From a virus, in IMG/VR virus record IMGVR_UViG_3300040806_001028, positions 1 through 29,340 of that record: 29,340 bases of DNA. One strand, 5' to 3'. A program made the position numbers and the translations under genes. Under the pieces are notes generated by a model. The model had not been told where the DNA came from. It did no database searches and saw only the letters and a list, made by a program, of their open reading frames with translations. Below are positions 11,974 through 15,401 of the stretch, piece after piece (the first letter of the stretch is position 1; every line of letters starts with the position of its first letter).

Positions 11974-12942
11974 ATGGCATTAGCAAACATGCAAGTTTAC
12001 AACAATGAGATTGTAGGCACTACTATCGAGCTTTTAGGTCAAATGACTAATAAGTTCAACCAAGCGTCGGGCGGTGCGATTGTGCTATCTACTGACGGCT
12101 TCCGTGGTGACTTTGATAAAGAGTCATTCTTCAATCAAATCGCAAGCGCACAACGCCGTGTAGATCGCTATGCAGCAAACGGCGCTCAAGGTGCAACTAA
12201 CCTAACTCAAGGTGAAGTTGTTGGCGTTAAAGTTGGCGGCGGTTTTGGCCCTGTATTGTTTGAGCCTTCACAGCTTTCATGGCTACAGCGAGATCCAGGC
12301 GCGGCTATCATGGCTATCTCAGAAGGTTTTGCCGATGCTTTAATTGCAGATCAACTAAACACTGCGGTAGGCGCAGCAGTTGCAGCAATCGAAAACCAAG
12401 CAGCACTAGTAAATGATGTTTCTGGTACTGGCGGCATTAGTCAAATCGCGCTAAACGGCTCTCACGCTAAGTTTGGCGATAGCTCATCAATGCTTATTAC
12501 TGATGTAATGTCTGGCTCTGTTTATCACCGCTTAGTAGGTGAAGCAATTAGCAACTCTAACCGTTTATTTGAATCTACAAACGTTAAAGTAATTGATATT
12601 TTAGGTAAGCTTGTTGTTGTTTCTGACATTCCAGCGCTTTACGAAGCTGGTGCGCCAAACAAAGATAAGGTTCTGTCACTTACTAACCGTGGTATCGTTG
12701 TTGATAATACATCGGATATTATCTCTAACCTTGAAACAACAAACGGCAAGCAGCGTATCGAGACAACTTGGCAGGCTGACTACACATTTGGTCTTAAGCT
12801 TAAAGGCTTTAGCTGGGATGTTCAAAACGGCGGCGCTTCACCAACTGATGCAGAGTTATTCACTGGCACTAACTGGGATAAAGCTGTGGCAGAAGATAAG
12901 CATTTGGCTGGTACTCTTGCTATTGGTTCAGCGGGCGCATAA
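11974..12942 (+). CDS. Major capsid protein (Gp13-like)
   Basis: 322 residues, likely HK97-fold. The N-terminal SGGAIVLSTDGFRGDFDKESFF and QRRVDRYAANGAQGATNLTQGEVVGVKVGG, and the later TWQADYTFGLKLKGFSWDV near residue ~270-290, match what I recall of the major capsid protein 13-like family. It follows the scaffold by 13 bases and is followed by a small gene with AAGGAG. Ala/Gly-rich composition and balanced charge are usual for abundant coat proteins. No decoration domain is seen inside it. Confidence 0.88.
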   Translation: MALANMQVYNNEIVGTTIELLGQMTNKFNQASGGAIVLSTDGFRGDFDKESFFNQIASAQRRVDRYAANGAQGATNLTQGEVVGVKVGGGFGPVLFEPSQLSWLQRDPGAAIMAISEGFADALIADQLNTAVGAAVAAIENQAALVNDVSGTGGISQIALNGSHAKFGDSSSMLITDVMSGSVYHRLVGEAISNSNRLFESTNVKVIDILGKLVVVSDIPALYEAGAPNKDKVLSLTNRGIVVDNTSDIISNLETTNGKQRIETTWQADYTFGLKLKGFSWDVQNGGASPTDAELFTGTNWDKAVAEDKHLAGTLAIGSAGA

Positions 12943-12952
12943 GGAGTAATTT

Positions 12953-13099
12953 ATGGCTACTGCATACGCTCAACACCCGCTAACAAAGGAAGAAAAGAAA
13001 GCTCTTCTAAAGAAGTTTGACAAGGTTTTAGACTTACGCTTTAAACCAGAAAAGCTAGAAACGGGTGATAAAGTTATCGAAAAAGAAAAAGCTAAATAA
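12953..13099 (+). CDS. Small Lys-rich protein after the capsid gene (48 aa)
   Basis: ATG with AAGGAG 6 bases upstream, starting 10 bases after the capsid stop. The product is helical and rich in Lys and Glu (TKEEKKALLKKFDKVLDLRF, then KVIEKEKAK). It is probably translated in the capsid operon. It could be a minor head component or decoration peptide; no family is recognised. A strong terminator follows. Confidence 0.65.
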   Translation: MATAYAQHPLTKEEKKALLKKFDKVLDLRFKPEKLETGDKVIEKEKAK

Positions 13100-13127: not shown

Positions 13128-13154
13128 AGCCTCACCTTTGAGTGGGGCTTTTTT
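13128..13154 (+). terminator. Terminator of the capsid operon
   Basis: AGCCTCAC (13128-13135) pairs with GTGGGGCT (13142-13149), 8 bp with one G-T, loop CTTTGA, then six T. Confidence 0.85.
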
Positions 13155-13167
13155 ATGTGAGGAAATT

Positions 13168-13278
13168 ATGAGGAACGATTTACTTAAGCAAATTGTAGTT
13201 GCGGCAGGTGGAACAGTTACCGACCCAAACAATAGAAATAAACTATTAAAAGATTGGCTTACAGCTTTAGGAGGTTGA
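13168..13278 (+). CDS. Small hypothetical protein (36 aa)
   Basis: ATG with GAGG upstream, 13 bases after the terminator. The product starts MRNDLLKQIVVAAGG and ends LLKDWLTALGG. The short motif TVTDPNNRNKLLKDWL reads like a compact helical peptide. It precedes the fibre-like gene by one base, and its last codons carry that gene's ribosome binding site (AGGAGG). Probably coupled to it; function unknown. Confidence 0.55.
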   Translation: MRNDLLKQIVVAAGGTVTDPNNRNKLLKDWLTALGG

Positions 13279-13279
13279 T

Positions 13280-14542
13280 ATGGTTGACGAAACAAGAAAC
13301 GAGCTATTAGCAGATATACTGACAGCAACACAGAATATCAGCGGATCTTATGATGGCAGGGTTGTCGTAAAGCAGGCGTCAGACCTTGCAGGGGCTCTTG
13401 ATAGCACCAAAGAGTATTTTATTGATGGTGTTGTTGATATGGGGTCTCAGTCGATTGAGGTGCCAGCAGGTGGACTTTATTTGTCTGGCTATAACTTTGA
13501 CACATCCAAACTAATATCTAGCGCAACAAACTATACAATGTTCACCTCGCCCGTTGGTGGTAGCGGTAATGTGATTGGTAAGGATTACGCGATAGAGGTC
13601 ACAGGAGCAACATCAAAAGTATATGACTTAACTAGCGCAACTGGTTTTGATGCTTTTGAGTTTAGCAGGATCAACTATAACAACTGCGAATCTCTTGGTG
13701 AAATAAACGGGTACAGACAAGGCTTTGAAAGTGGAACCGGTAGGTTTGGCGGAAAACCAGAACTGACACTATCTGGCACTTGGGTTGGCGGGTATTTTAT
13801 CGACGCATCAATAGTTAGAAGCCTTGCCGATGGCGCTTACTCGCTATTCAAGGCAGGGGCTGGCTTTAGCATGGCCTCACGATTTAGAACTAACATGAAT
13901 TTAGACTTACCAGCTAGCGCTTCATTCTTTGACTTTGCTCCCGCTAACTTTCCAAACCCATCAACAGTACAAGTGGATGGCGCGATAGTTAGCAGGCAGG
14001 GCGTACAAGATGCAACCGACGCAAACTACACACCAAATATAACAGCAGGTGACTTAGTTTGCGCGTGGTCTAACAATGTAGGTATGCCAAATACATTTGA
14101 AGGTGGTGCAATTGGTATTGCGGCAGAGACTGCAACAACAATTAATGCAGTTGGCACTTTTGAAGATGTTAATGCTGTGGCGTGGAATGTGACTGACTTG
14201 CAGCATTTTGATAACCCAGAAGACGGCCAGCTAAGACATATAGGCATAAATCCAAGAGAGTACAAAGTTGTAGCTTCAATGTCTGCATCGTCAACAGCAA
14301 ATAATGTTCTAACCTTGAGGGTTTTGAAATGGGATAACTCAGCCTCAGCATTTGCAACTGTTTTAGATCAAGTTAGACCAGTTAACAATTTCACGGGCGC
14401 AAGGGATGTTGCTTTTTTCGATGTGAACATAAACACAACGCTAGACCAAAATGACTACATAAAGTTACAGGTGACAAATAACACAGCCACTAACAGTGTT
14501 ACTTTTGAAACTGATGGATATTACCTGGTAGAGGAAAGATAA
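13280..14542 (+). CDS. Putative head-fibre or surface protein (420 aa)
   Basis: ATG with AGGAGG. The first ~25 residues are helical (ETRNELLADILTATQN). Residues ~28-230 look beta-rich with turns and many Gly/Ser/Asn, similar to a short right-handed beta-helix. The C-terminal third (~290-420) resembles a jelly-roll carbohydrate-binding-like domain (NNVLTLRVLKWDNSASAF, then LDQNDYIKLQVTNNT). That arrangement fits a virion surface fibre or decoration protein. Its place between capsid and connector genes, flanked by terminators, suggests an optional add-on (moron). The function is inferred from composition and location only. Confidence 0.55.
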   Translation: MVDETRNELLADILTATQNISGSYDGRVVVKQASDLAGALDSTKEYFIDGVVDMGSQSIEVPAGGLYLSGYNFDTSKLISSATNYTMFTSPVGGSGNVIGKDYAIEVTGATSKVYDLTSATGFDAFEFSRINYNNCESLGEINGYRQGFESGTGRFGGKPELTLSGTWVGGYFIDASIVRSLADGAYSLFKAGAGFSMASRFRTNMNLDLPASASFFDFAPANFPNPSTVQVDGAIVSRQGVQDATDANYTPNITAGDLVCAWSNNVGMPNTFEGGAIGIAAETATTINAVGTFEDVNAVAWNVTDLQHFDNPEDGQLRHIGINPREYKVVASMSASSTANNVLTLRVLKWDNSASAFATVLDQVRPVNNFTGARDVAFFDVNINTTLDQNDYIKLQVTNNTATNSVTFETDGYYLVEER

Positions 14543-14545
14543 CAA

Positions 14546-14570
14546 AAAGCCCCATTAATCGGGGCTTTCT
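14546..14570. terminator. Bidirectional terminator after the fibre-like gene
   Basis: AAAGCCCC (14546-14553) pairs with GGGGCTTT (14561-14568), loop ATTAATC. It lies between converging genes and has the same arms as 5807 and 17728. Confidence 0.9.
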
Positions 14571-14758
14571 TCATTCGCTTGATGGTCTATCTGACTGTCA
14601 ATAACCGCAACACCACACAGGAATATAACTGTAATCGCCATCAATGCAGTTAACAGCGGAAACATGCCGTGAAACTCTAAAAGCTCGAAAGCCTCACTAA
14701 TCATCCAAAGGCAAGAAGCAGTTAATGCTAAAGACTGTAAAAATATTTTAATTTTCAT
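14555..14758 (-). CDS. Small membrane protein, two TM segments (67 aa)
   Basis: ATG at 14758 with GGGTGA upstream. Hydrophobic stretches at ~5-20 (also readable as a signal peptide) and ~33-53, then an acidic C-terminal tail (DHQANEESPD). The stop overlaps the shared terminator. The minus orientation inside a plus-strand structural cluster marks it as an accessory gene. Superinfection exclusion or an envelope role is possible but unsupported. Confidence 0.65.
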   Translation of the reverse strand: MKIKIFLQSLALTASCLWMISEAFELLEFHGMFPLLTALMAITVIFLCGVAVIDSQIDHQANEESPD

Positions 14759-14871: not shown

Positions 14872-14928
14872 ATGATTGAATTTAACGAAGAAGATTGGCC
14901 GATAATTGAAGAAGATTGGAGTTTTTAA
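14872..14928 (+). CDS. Acidic leader peptide (18 aa)
   Basis: ATG at 14872, about 25 bases after the expected transcription start, opens MIEFNEEDWPIIEEDWSF, with seven acidic residues and no basic one. Its stop overlaps the next start by one base (TAATG), and its last codons include the GGAG of that gene. It looks like a coupling leader peptide for the connector operon. Its own ribosome binding site (AGG, 8 bases upstream) is weak. Confidence 0.45.
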   Translation: MIEFNEEDWPIIEEDWSF

Positions 14929-15401
14929 TGGCTGTCACAGTTGGTACAGATTCTTACTTAACACTAGCAGAGTTTAAGGCGCAAGCTGATGCGTTAGCGC
15001 GTGATTACACAAGTTATACAGATGAACAGATTGAAGCGGCATTAATTGAGAGCTCACTTTTTTATATTGACCCAACTTACACATTTAGAGGTAGCAAGGT
15101 TGATGAGTCTCAAGCAATGGATTTACCGACCACGTCAGTATCTATTGCTGATATTTCAAAAGGTGCATTCCAAGCGGCATGGCAAGCTTTGACTGGTTAT
15201 CTATTTGTTGATCAAGCAGTGAACGCTAGCGGCAAAGTAATCAAAGAGCGCAAAAAGCTAGCAACGCTAGAAAAAGAAACTGAATACAAGGATGGTTCAA
15301 TTCCTACGGTTACTTATGACACAAGCAGAATCACAGCTTTATTAAGGCCTTACTTAGTAAATCAGTCAAGCGCTTTTATGGTCGCTAAAGGTTATAGTTA
15401 A
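14928..15401 (+). CDS. Head-tail connector protein (DnaT-like/adaptor)
   Basis: 157 residues; ATG 14928 has GGAG at 6-7 bases and is preferred to the TTG at 14916. The pattern GTDSYLTLAEFKAQADAL, DEQIEAALIESSLFYID and AFQAAWQALTGYLF is typical of the helical connector proteins annotated as 'DnaT-like' in phages, which bind beneath the portal. It starts the four-gene neck module, each gene overlapping or touching the next. Confidence 0.8.
   Translation: MAVTVGTDSYLTLAEFKAQADALARDYTSYTDEQIEAALIESSLFYIDPTYTFRGSKVDESQAMDLPTTSVSIADISKGAFQAAWQALTGYLFVDQAVNASGKVIKERKKLATLEKETEYKDGSIPTVTYDTSRITALLRPYLVNQSSAFMVAKGYS

Follow-up and report, generated by a model that had tools for sequence, protein, structure and literature searches.

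We analyzed a window of 29,340 bases of viral DNA (the whole of positions 1 to 29,340 of IMG/VR virus record IMGVR_UViG_3300040806_001028) and, within it, a small cassette that lies between the major capsid gene and the gene for the head-tail adaptor Ad1 and that encodes a 36-residue microprotein and a 420-residue putative spike. By gene content the window looks like the structural part of a tailed phage, and library matches give the order TerL (a weak NCBIfam match), MuF-like head protein, scaffold, Gp13-like capsid, Ad1, Hc1, and tape measure. The nearest named relatives of the phage are marine phages; at the DNA level, no more than 20% of the 8.9-kb head/neck region is alignable to any single named phage. 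A preliminary description of this DNA had noted a 420-residue open reading frame (ORF), a small upstream gene, and a minus-strand membrane gene between the capsid and connector genes, and all three lie where it had placed them. The features of the locus are as follows.

11974..12942, plus strand: major capsid protein, Gp13-like (PF20036, 1.7e-110; phrog_247), the proposed docking partner.
12953..13099, plus strand: 48-residue small gene directly 3′ of the capsid gene (phrog_16180, 7.7e-6).
13128..13149, plus strand: terminator-like hairpin with a T run (terminator scan), separating the capsid operon from the cassette.
13168..13278, plus strand: 36-residue microprotein containing the RNELL repeat twice (at 13171 and 13234), the proposed base or adaptor.
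13280..14542, plus strand: 420-residue spike protein with an ATG start (phrog_16509).
13295..13336, plus strand: RNELL motif of the spike, RNELLADILTATQN, residues 6-19, overlapping the predicted helix 3-18.
13358..14089, plus strand: parallel beta-helix domain, residues 27-270 (VIA-align), the more conserved domain.
14102..14539, plus strand: C1q/TNF-like jelly roll, residues 275-420 (VIA-align), presumed trimerization domain and possible lectin domain.
14544..14570, strand given as "." (the scan lists minus): terminator hairpin where the spike gene and the convergent minus-strand gene meet (scan and stability test).
14555..14758, minus strand: 67-residue predicted membrane protein, a convergent accessory gene, with two hydrophobic stretches by eye.
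14928..15401 (start 14916 or 14928), plus strand: head-tail adaptor Ad1, the downstream edge of the slot (phrog_477, 4.4e-18).

Residues 27-420 of the spike match phrog_16509 at 1.2e-174, a family that carries no assigned function. Pfam contained 0 matching families at an E value of ≤1 and NCBIfam nothing relevant, so the earlier statement that the ORF belongs to no named family holds for these two libraries but not for PHROG. Spike relatives at E ≤ 1 were found in 9 of 50,697 phage records, representing five Pseudoalteromonas phages of the same phrog_16509 family; identity to the window spike over approximately residues 27-420 was 73-76% for H105/1, HS1, HS5, and H103 and 42% for PH357. In IMG/VR, 109 stretches encode spike relatives, the best 80 of which were kept, and a scan of genome_contigs added three, all in metagenome-assembled genomes; both scans pick up close relatives only.

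An AlphaFold2 model of the spike (37 sequences; mean predicted local distance difference test [pLDDT] score, 85.6) consists of an N-terminal helix at residues 3-18 followed almost entirely by strands, which form a beta-helix (approximately residues 23-273) and a C1q/TNF-like jelly roll (271-420). The helical N-terminus, beta-rich middle, and jelly-roll-like end proposed from the sequence are thus borne out, and the fold searches identified the middle as a beta-helix of the tailspike/pectate lyase type. With VIA-align, the beta-helix superposed on pectate lyase A with a Z score of 16.7 (root mean square deviation [rmsd], 3.3; 224 residues aligned), and pectate lyase A and tailspike-like folds count as tied because they fall within Z 1 of each other. 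The jelly roll matched C1q/TNF folds at Z 13.6-14.6 (rmsd, 2.1-3.0; 116-136 residues). Foldseek against the PDB placed the K2-2 tailspike first (6.7e-7; whole-chain template modeling [TM] score, 0.21), followed by further tailspikes and TNF-family chains; whole-chain TM scores were low among these matches. Against predicted viral structures there were 356 matches at E ≤ 0.001, the best four unnamed. When the spike family profile was run against PDB sequences, the matches were weak and to tail-needle entries only (E 0.14-0.19); they were not used.

The beta-helix is the more conserved of the two large domains. Mean pairwise identity among the relatives was 65.5% for the beta-helix versus 52% for the jelly roll, and 49 of 244 beta-helix positions were invariant versus 11 of 145 in the jelly roll, with an invariant-rich block at approximately residues 132-180; three of the six short patterns used to retrieve the relatives came from the beta-helix, which can favor conservation there. 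Seven near relatives were compared with the window across the two larger domains. The ratio of nonsynonymous to synonymous differences per site (pN/pS) was 0.06-0.14 for five of them and 0.11-0.30 for the other two, L006 and L007, in which there are very few differences. The spike ORF is under purifying selection.

The first residues of the spike share a 14-residue motif, RNELL, with the microprotein upstream. The microprotein is made up of two copies (RNxLLxxIVxAxGG ... RNxLLxDWLxAxGG), and the start of the spike is a third (RNELLADILTATQN). The small upstream gene of the preliminary description is therefore not just present but part of the same system. A TTG-started frame at 13138-13278 would encode 46 residues; the ATG at 13168, giving 36 residues, is the start common to relatives. 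The microgene is under purifying selection, with pS of 0.20-0.32 and pN of 0.012-0.048 against nine near-relative copies; the microprotein is 75% identical to that of Vibrio phage 1.189.B (pS 0.74) and 78% identical to that of HS2 (pS 0.68). Within the phage collection it matched 31 records at E < 0.001, of which 28 are from Vibrio phages (27 from V. breoganii) and 3 from Pseudoalteromonas phages, and 13 additional records gave weaker matches. The gene is unannotated in seven deposited Vibrio phage records (L095:6151-6264 and six more, H20-H26), three of which are isolates of one phage; it was missed there because it is so short. When ten proteins were scanned against PHROG, five had no match at E ≤ 0.01, including the 1.189.B microprotein. 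The RNELL profile, a short query, found nothing significant among PDB sequences (best E 0.25, an unrelated enzyme). Among the matches listed by a literature search, judged by titles and abstract openings, none described a shared capsid-docking repeat or microprotein.

The motif is concentrated at this position in the genome. A matrix trained without the genome under test was used to rank all six-frame 14-mers, and in 6 of 6 genomes the top-ranked 14-mers all lay inside the slot between the capsid and Ad1 genes (window, 3; 1.189.B, 3; 1.168.O, 4; BS5, 4; 1.131.O, 3; HS2, 3). The slot edges in HS2 were placed by hand, its record being unannotated. The copy at the start of the spike ranked second among the six-frame 14-mers of the window.

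An IMG/VR scan with the repeat alignment yielded 76 loci. Together with the window, four loci from an earlier scan, and five phage records, these held 177 ORFs in which RNELL scored at least 14 bits; two of these are minus-strand ORFs and are probably spurious. After three duplicates were dropped, the 83 loci represented 64 non-redundant ones. A Gp13-like capsid gene starts less than 2.2 kb upstream in 51 of the 54 non-redundant loci with 1.5 kb of upstream sequence. The three exceptions are L123, which shares a contig with L124 (the capsid gene is upstream of L124), L157, with another capsid-like ORF by eye, and L138, with neither. Ad1 was found downstream in 37 of the 52 loci with enough sequence. 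The first RNELL ORF is free-standing (≤45 residues) in 49 of the 64 non-redundant loci, and in 48 of these 49 the free microgene is followed by an ORF that carries RNELL on a larger payload, with a gap of ≤46 nucleotides in 45. Motif offsets were recounted from in-frame stops because a nearest-ATG rule biases them toward the N-terminus; on this count, of 100 ORFs longer than 45 residues (redundant set), 96 have RNELL beginning no more than 20 codons after an in-frame stop.

The payloads differ widely. Those of at least 80 residues numbered 93 in 19 clusters before redundancy removal, with cluster sizes of 33, 20 (the present spike), 8, 5, 5, and smaller. One modeled member of the largest cluster has an N-terminal helix followed by a TNF/C1q-like fold (pLDDT, 89.0). 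VIA-align placed it nearest to a cyanophage short tail fiber domain (Z 12.2; rmsd, 3.2; 154 residues), with the next rows within Z 1; in Foldseek, the TNF-like lectin PLTL came first, followed closely by tail-needle knobs and BC2L-C. Other payloads hint at a GDSL/SGNH-like domain (BS5 gp11) and a laminin-G-like domain (L014), both under Pfam's cutoff.

Two variant arrangements were also seen. Vibrio phage 1.168.O (L096:6900-7763) encodes a single protein whose N-terminus holds RNELL five times in tandem, and Pseudoalteromonas phage BS5 gp11 (L097:7090-8415) carries three repeats ahead of its weakly hydrolase-like domain, between the capsid gene and Ad1.

Spike N-termini vary with head/neck context, and residues 27-420 are conserved across relatives; the displayed domain is therefore the conserved part of the spike. 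N-termini of 87 relatives (redundant set, exclusive of the window itself) were sorted with author-made regular expressions. For class A (RNELL; n = 14), one of the three ORFs before the spike gene belonged to the Gp13-like capsid cluster in 12 of the 12 members with upstream sequence; for class B (MAQQ-type; n = 13), one belonged to the Hc3 cluster in 13 of 13. Class C (N-terminus of at least 100 residues; n = 32) had the Ad3 cluster directly upstream in 23, with 2 lacking upstream sequence, and the representative capsid in its context is P22-type (PF11651). Classes D (n = 8) and E (n = 20) hold other N-termini; among rows classed as other, L049, L050, and L088 look like class B, and L082, L084, and L085 have the context of class C. 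The N-termini in H105/1, HS5, H103, and PH357 are all unlike that of the window. The head or connector genes that adjoin spike relatives go with varied capsids (Gp13-like PF20036, P22-type PF11651, phrog_1328, phrog_267, and phrog_3437), and in L026 the spike gene lies directly 5′ of the capsid gene.

The spike relative in L026 (L026:4785-6236) has an 87-residue N-terminus that resembles, by eye, a free 91-residue protein encoded just 3′ of the capsid gene (L026:7341-7616), so a second anchor may exist there in free and fused forms. In L008, L009, L010, L012, and L013 the spikes are 94-97% identical to that of the window and the capsid proteins only 28-29%; the capsid gene thus appears to have been replaced while the spike next to it stayed constant. 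These capsids are 87% identical to another Gp13-like query.

The preliminary description had also presented the cassette as fenced by terminators. Both hairpins were found. That at 14544-14570 is far more stable than shuffled sequences (z of -4.6 on one strand and -4.5 on the other; 0 of 200 shuffles each), and that at 13128-13149 is modestly so (z of -1.65; 13 of 200); the latter recurs in near relatives, and phage H105/1 has annotated terminators in the corresponding positions. The 8-kb region as a whole has 10 terminator-like sites versus 7.4 (standard deviation, 3.4) expected by chance, which is not an excess. A terminator occurs in 14 of 67 distinct regions upstream of RNELL loci (0.6 expected from shuffles), and terminators were rejected as the feature that defines the module. 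On the plus strand, the scan listed no promoter-like site at 13149-13280, so the microgene and spike gene may rely on read-through or on a type of promoter outside the scan.

We consider it probable, though well short of assured, that the two genes of the cassette make up a module for a head-surface spike ("turret"), with the microprotein as base or adaptor and the spike docked by its N-terminal RNELL helix. The 420-residue protein would be carried on the virion as a trimeric spike, and its helix would dock on the Gp13-like capsid. The beta-helix would present a conserved glycan-binding or glycan-cleaving surface, and the C1q/TNF-like end would trimerize the spike and may itself bind sugar. 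The 36-residue microprotein, with its two docking motifs, would sit on the capsid as a helical base or adaptor to which the spike attaches. Such phages would retain the microprotein and motif and swap the payload; because the former are kept and the latter is exchanged, we propose that the capsid-adaptor slot is a plug-in site for a first, reversible contact with host or environmental polysaccharide. The earlier suggestion of a virion surface protein added as an optional module agrees with the fold, the capsid-connector slot, the context-dependent N-termini, and the varied payloads elsewhere, but the terminators do not define the module and the domain is not confined to heads.

Known systems offer several comparisons. 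Tailspikes usually keep the anchor and exchange the spike, and the window family shows the reverse, an exchanged anchor and a conserved spike. Like beta-helix tailspikes and capsule depolymerases, the window spike has a parallel beta-helix (Fri1 gp49: Z 15.6; rmsd, 3.4; 227 aligned; predicted monomer); unlike tailspikes, it is encoded in the head module between the capsid gene and Ad1 and not with tail genes. The position of the gene next to the capsid gene, as in its relatives, is that of head fibers and turrets. Pfam holds a model for the phi29 head fiber, and the spike matched no Pfam family at E ≤ 1. SPP1 gp12 is collagen-like, unlike the window spike, whose translation shows no Gly-X-Y run by eye. 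According to PMC5498523, gp12 is a capsid spike that sits on gp13 hexamers, and the window likewise encodes a Gp13-like capsid (PF20036, 1.7e-110). The head fibers of phi29 and P68 are described in PMC9863714 as capsid attached, trimeric in P68, and thought to aid adsorption or positioning. The nearest described arrangement found is the HFTV1 turret, in which, according to PMC12494034, each capsid hexamer carries a base hexamer, and the outer protein, a trimer, has carbohydrate-binding and deacetylase-like domains; the two proteins, gp30 and gp31, are consecutively numbered, and reversible head-first adsorption is proposed. As in HFTV1, a small gene for a candidate base adjoins the spike gene here (48 of 49 loci). 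The base in HFTV1 has a beta-barrel that is inserted in the capsid (same source); the candidate base here is a two-repeat peptide of 33-39 residues that shares its motif with the spike. The cassette, known here from genes and models, would by analogy act like the HFTV1 turret with other parts, namely, a helical microprotein base and RNELL-docked trimers. The spike, then, belongs to a family without assigned function in what looks like a modular head-display cassette, a variant of head fibers and turrets and no new category.

Published work on Pseudoalteromonas phages bears on these proteins. In PMC5498523, virion proteins were identified by mass spectrometry and the capsid proteins of HS1 and HS8 were modeled on SPP1 gp13. 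"PSA-HP1 ORF 17, PC49" is reported there as structural, as one of only two structural proteins common to podophage HP1 and the HS2-like siphophages, as absent from HS1-like phages, and as a host range candidate; HP1 failed to infect the isolation host of RIO-1. The payload in the slot of HS2, the commonest payload type, is 41% identical over residues 33-185 to HP1 gp17, and RIO-1 also encodes an HS2-type payload. H105/1 and HS5, which are HS1-like, hold the present spike family in the capsid-adaptor slot. HS1-like and HS2-like phages have different slot payloads, and their reported host ranges do not overlap. PSAHS1_00032 of PMC5498523 was considered as a homologue of the present spike and could not be tied to it from the available text.

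Several observations weigh against a capsid-docked turret. The N-terminal helix was modeled at low confidence (pLDDT, 57-58), and the spike was modeled as a monomer, so a trimer cannot show in the model. In 1.168.O an off-slot site (13.5) outscored a fifth copy of the motif (10.0), and a region of PH357, in which the spike relative starts without RNELL, scored 16.1; weak single copies are thus not diagnostic. Nor are the left-out motif tests fully independent, since the BS5 and HS2 slot proteins are related. H105/1 and HS5 (class D) combine this spike with a Gp13-like capsid 42% identical to that of the window but have another N-terminus (MGKFLGISGGAIELKD), and a motif scan of H105/1 found no good copy (best, 12.9, on the minus strand). 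RNELL is therefore not required by every Gp13-like capsid, and the link runs from motif to capsid, not the reverse. Because the neighbors of the cassette include neck genes, a neck site fits almost as well as the capsid, and the main rival on location is a neck- or collar-attached, whisker-like spike that would dock on portal, adaptor, or neck instead of capsid hexamers. The presence of Ad1 downstream in 37 of 52 loci and the proximity of class B and C relatives to Hc3 or Ad3 connector genes are consistent with it. We nevertheless judge it unlikely, given that the capsid gene is the recurrent upstream neighbor of RNELL (51 of 54) and that the spike gene of L026 directly precedes the capsid gene.

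Less probable still is a tail location, with the protein acting as a receptor-binding protein or tailspike although its gene sits in the head module. Tailspikes top the Foldseek list, BS5 gp11 matches a tail fiber PHROG (5.1e-12), and the HP1 gp17 gene, encoding the homologue of the HS2-type payload, sits between tail appendage genes. In L069 and L083, moreover, the beta-helix/C1q domain is encoded near baseplate or tape-measure genes, which makes it a display domain beyond heads alone. A tail location is harder to reconcile with the separate tail fiber adhesin annotated in the tail module of H105/1, which has this spike family, with N-termini that follow head/neck context, and with the strongest RNELL copies lying in the capsid-Ad1 slot in all six genomes. 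HP1 gp17 is probably ORF 17 (PC49) of PMC5498523, judging from the matching numbers and the homology; that a homologue of a slot payload is probably a structural protein argues against an accessory moron with no virion role. Terminators on both sides, a convergent membrane gene, and exchangeable content would fit a moron, but the fiber-like fold, the N-terminus matched to structural context, and the conserved microgene pair leave that explanation with very little probability. An HS2-type payload cannot alone set host range, because RIO-1 has it and HP1 did not infect the RIO-1 host.

A further alternative concerns activity and is compatible with the turret reading: the beta-helix might be enzymatically active, as a polysaccharide depolymerase or lyase, instead of serving mainly as an adhesin. 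We regard this as possible but on the doubtful side. The closest folds include pectate lyase A and tailspike depolymerases, and the greater conservation of the beta-helix, with its invariant-rich block, is what an active site on a common substrate would produce. Set against this, fold likeness proves no function, no catalytic signature was identified in a spike that lacks Pfam and NCBIfam matches, and the retrieval patterns noted above can themselves favor conservation in the beta-helix.

A broader version of the turret reading, on which we are evenly divided, is a plug-and-socket system across the family: microproteins of about 35 residues with two repeats would pair with spikes bearing the same repeat, so that Gp13-like heads display interchangeable domains, among them beta-helix/C1q spikes, TNF-like lectin folds, and esterase-like and laminin-G-like domains. 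If so, adhesion to hosts or particles would have a second contributor, borne on the head, in the slot payload. Host range in phages is commonly inferred from tail proteins; a recurrent head-display slot with a recognizable docking motif would be a second place to seek adhesins and polysaccharide-active proteins, would account for unannotated genes between capsid and adaptor genes, and would offer a natural short tag for protein display on capsids.

Other genes around the cassette gave the following. The capsid protein has solved relatives (PDB sequence search; 8xb6_M, 1.8e-41), and Ad1 has none at E ≤ 1. The 67-residue membrane protein had weak matches only in the family libraries (best E 0.011). 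The Ad1 gene also matches Pfam PF20557, "Putative DnaT-like ssDNA binding protein," a label that looks misleading for an adaptor. A protein similar by eye to that of the 48-residue gene at 12953-13099 occurs at the same place in Vibrio phage 1.131.O; its family, phrog_16180, has no known function. A tRNA-Met gene (CAT anticodon) lies at 576-653, close to the start of the window.

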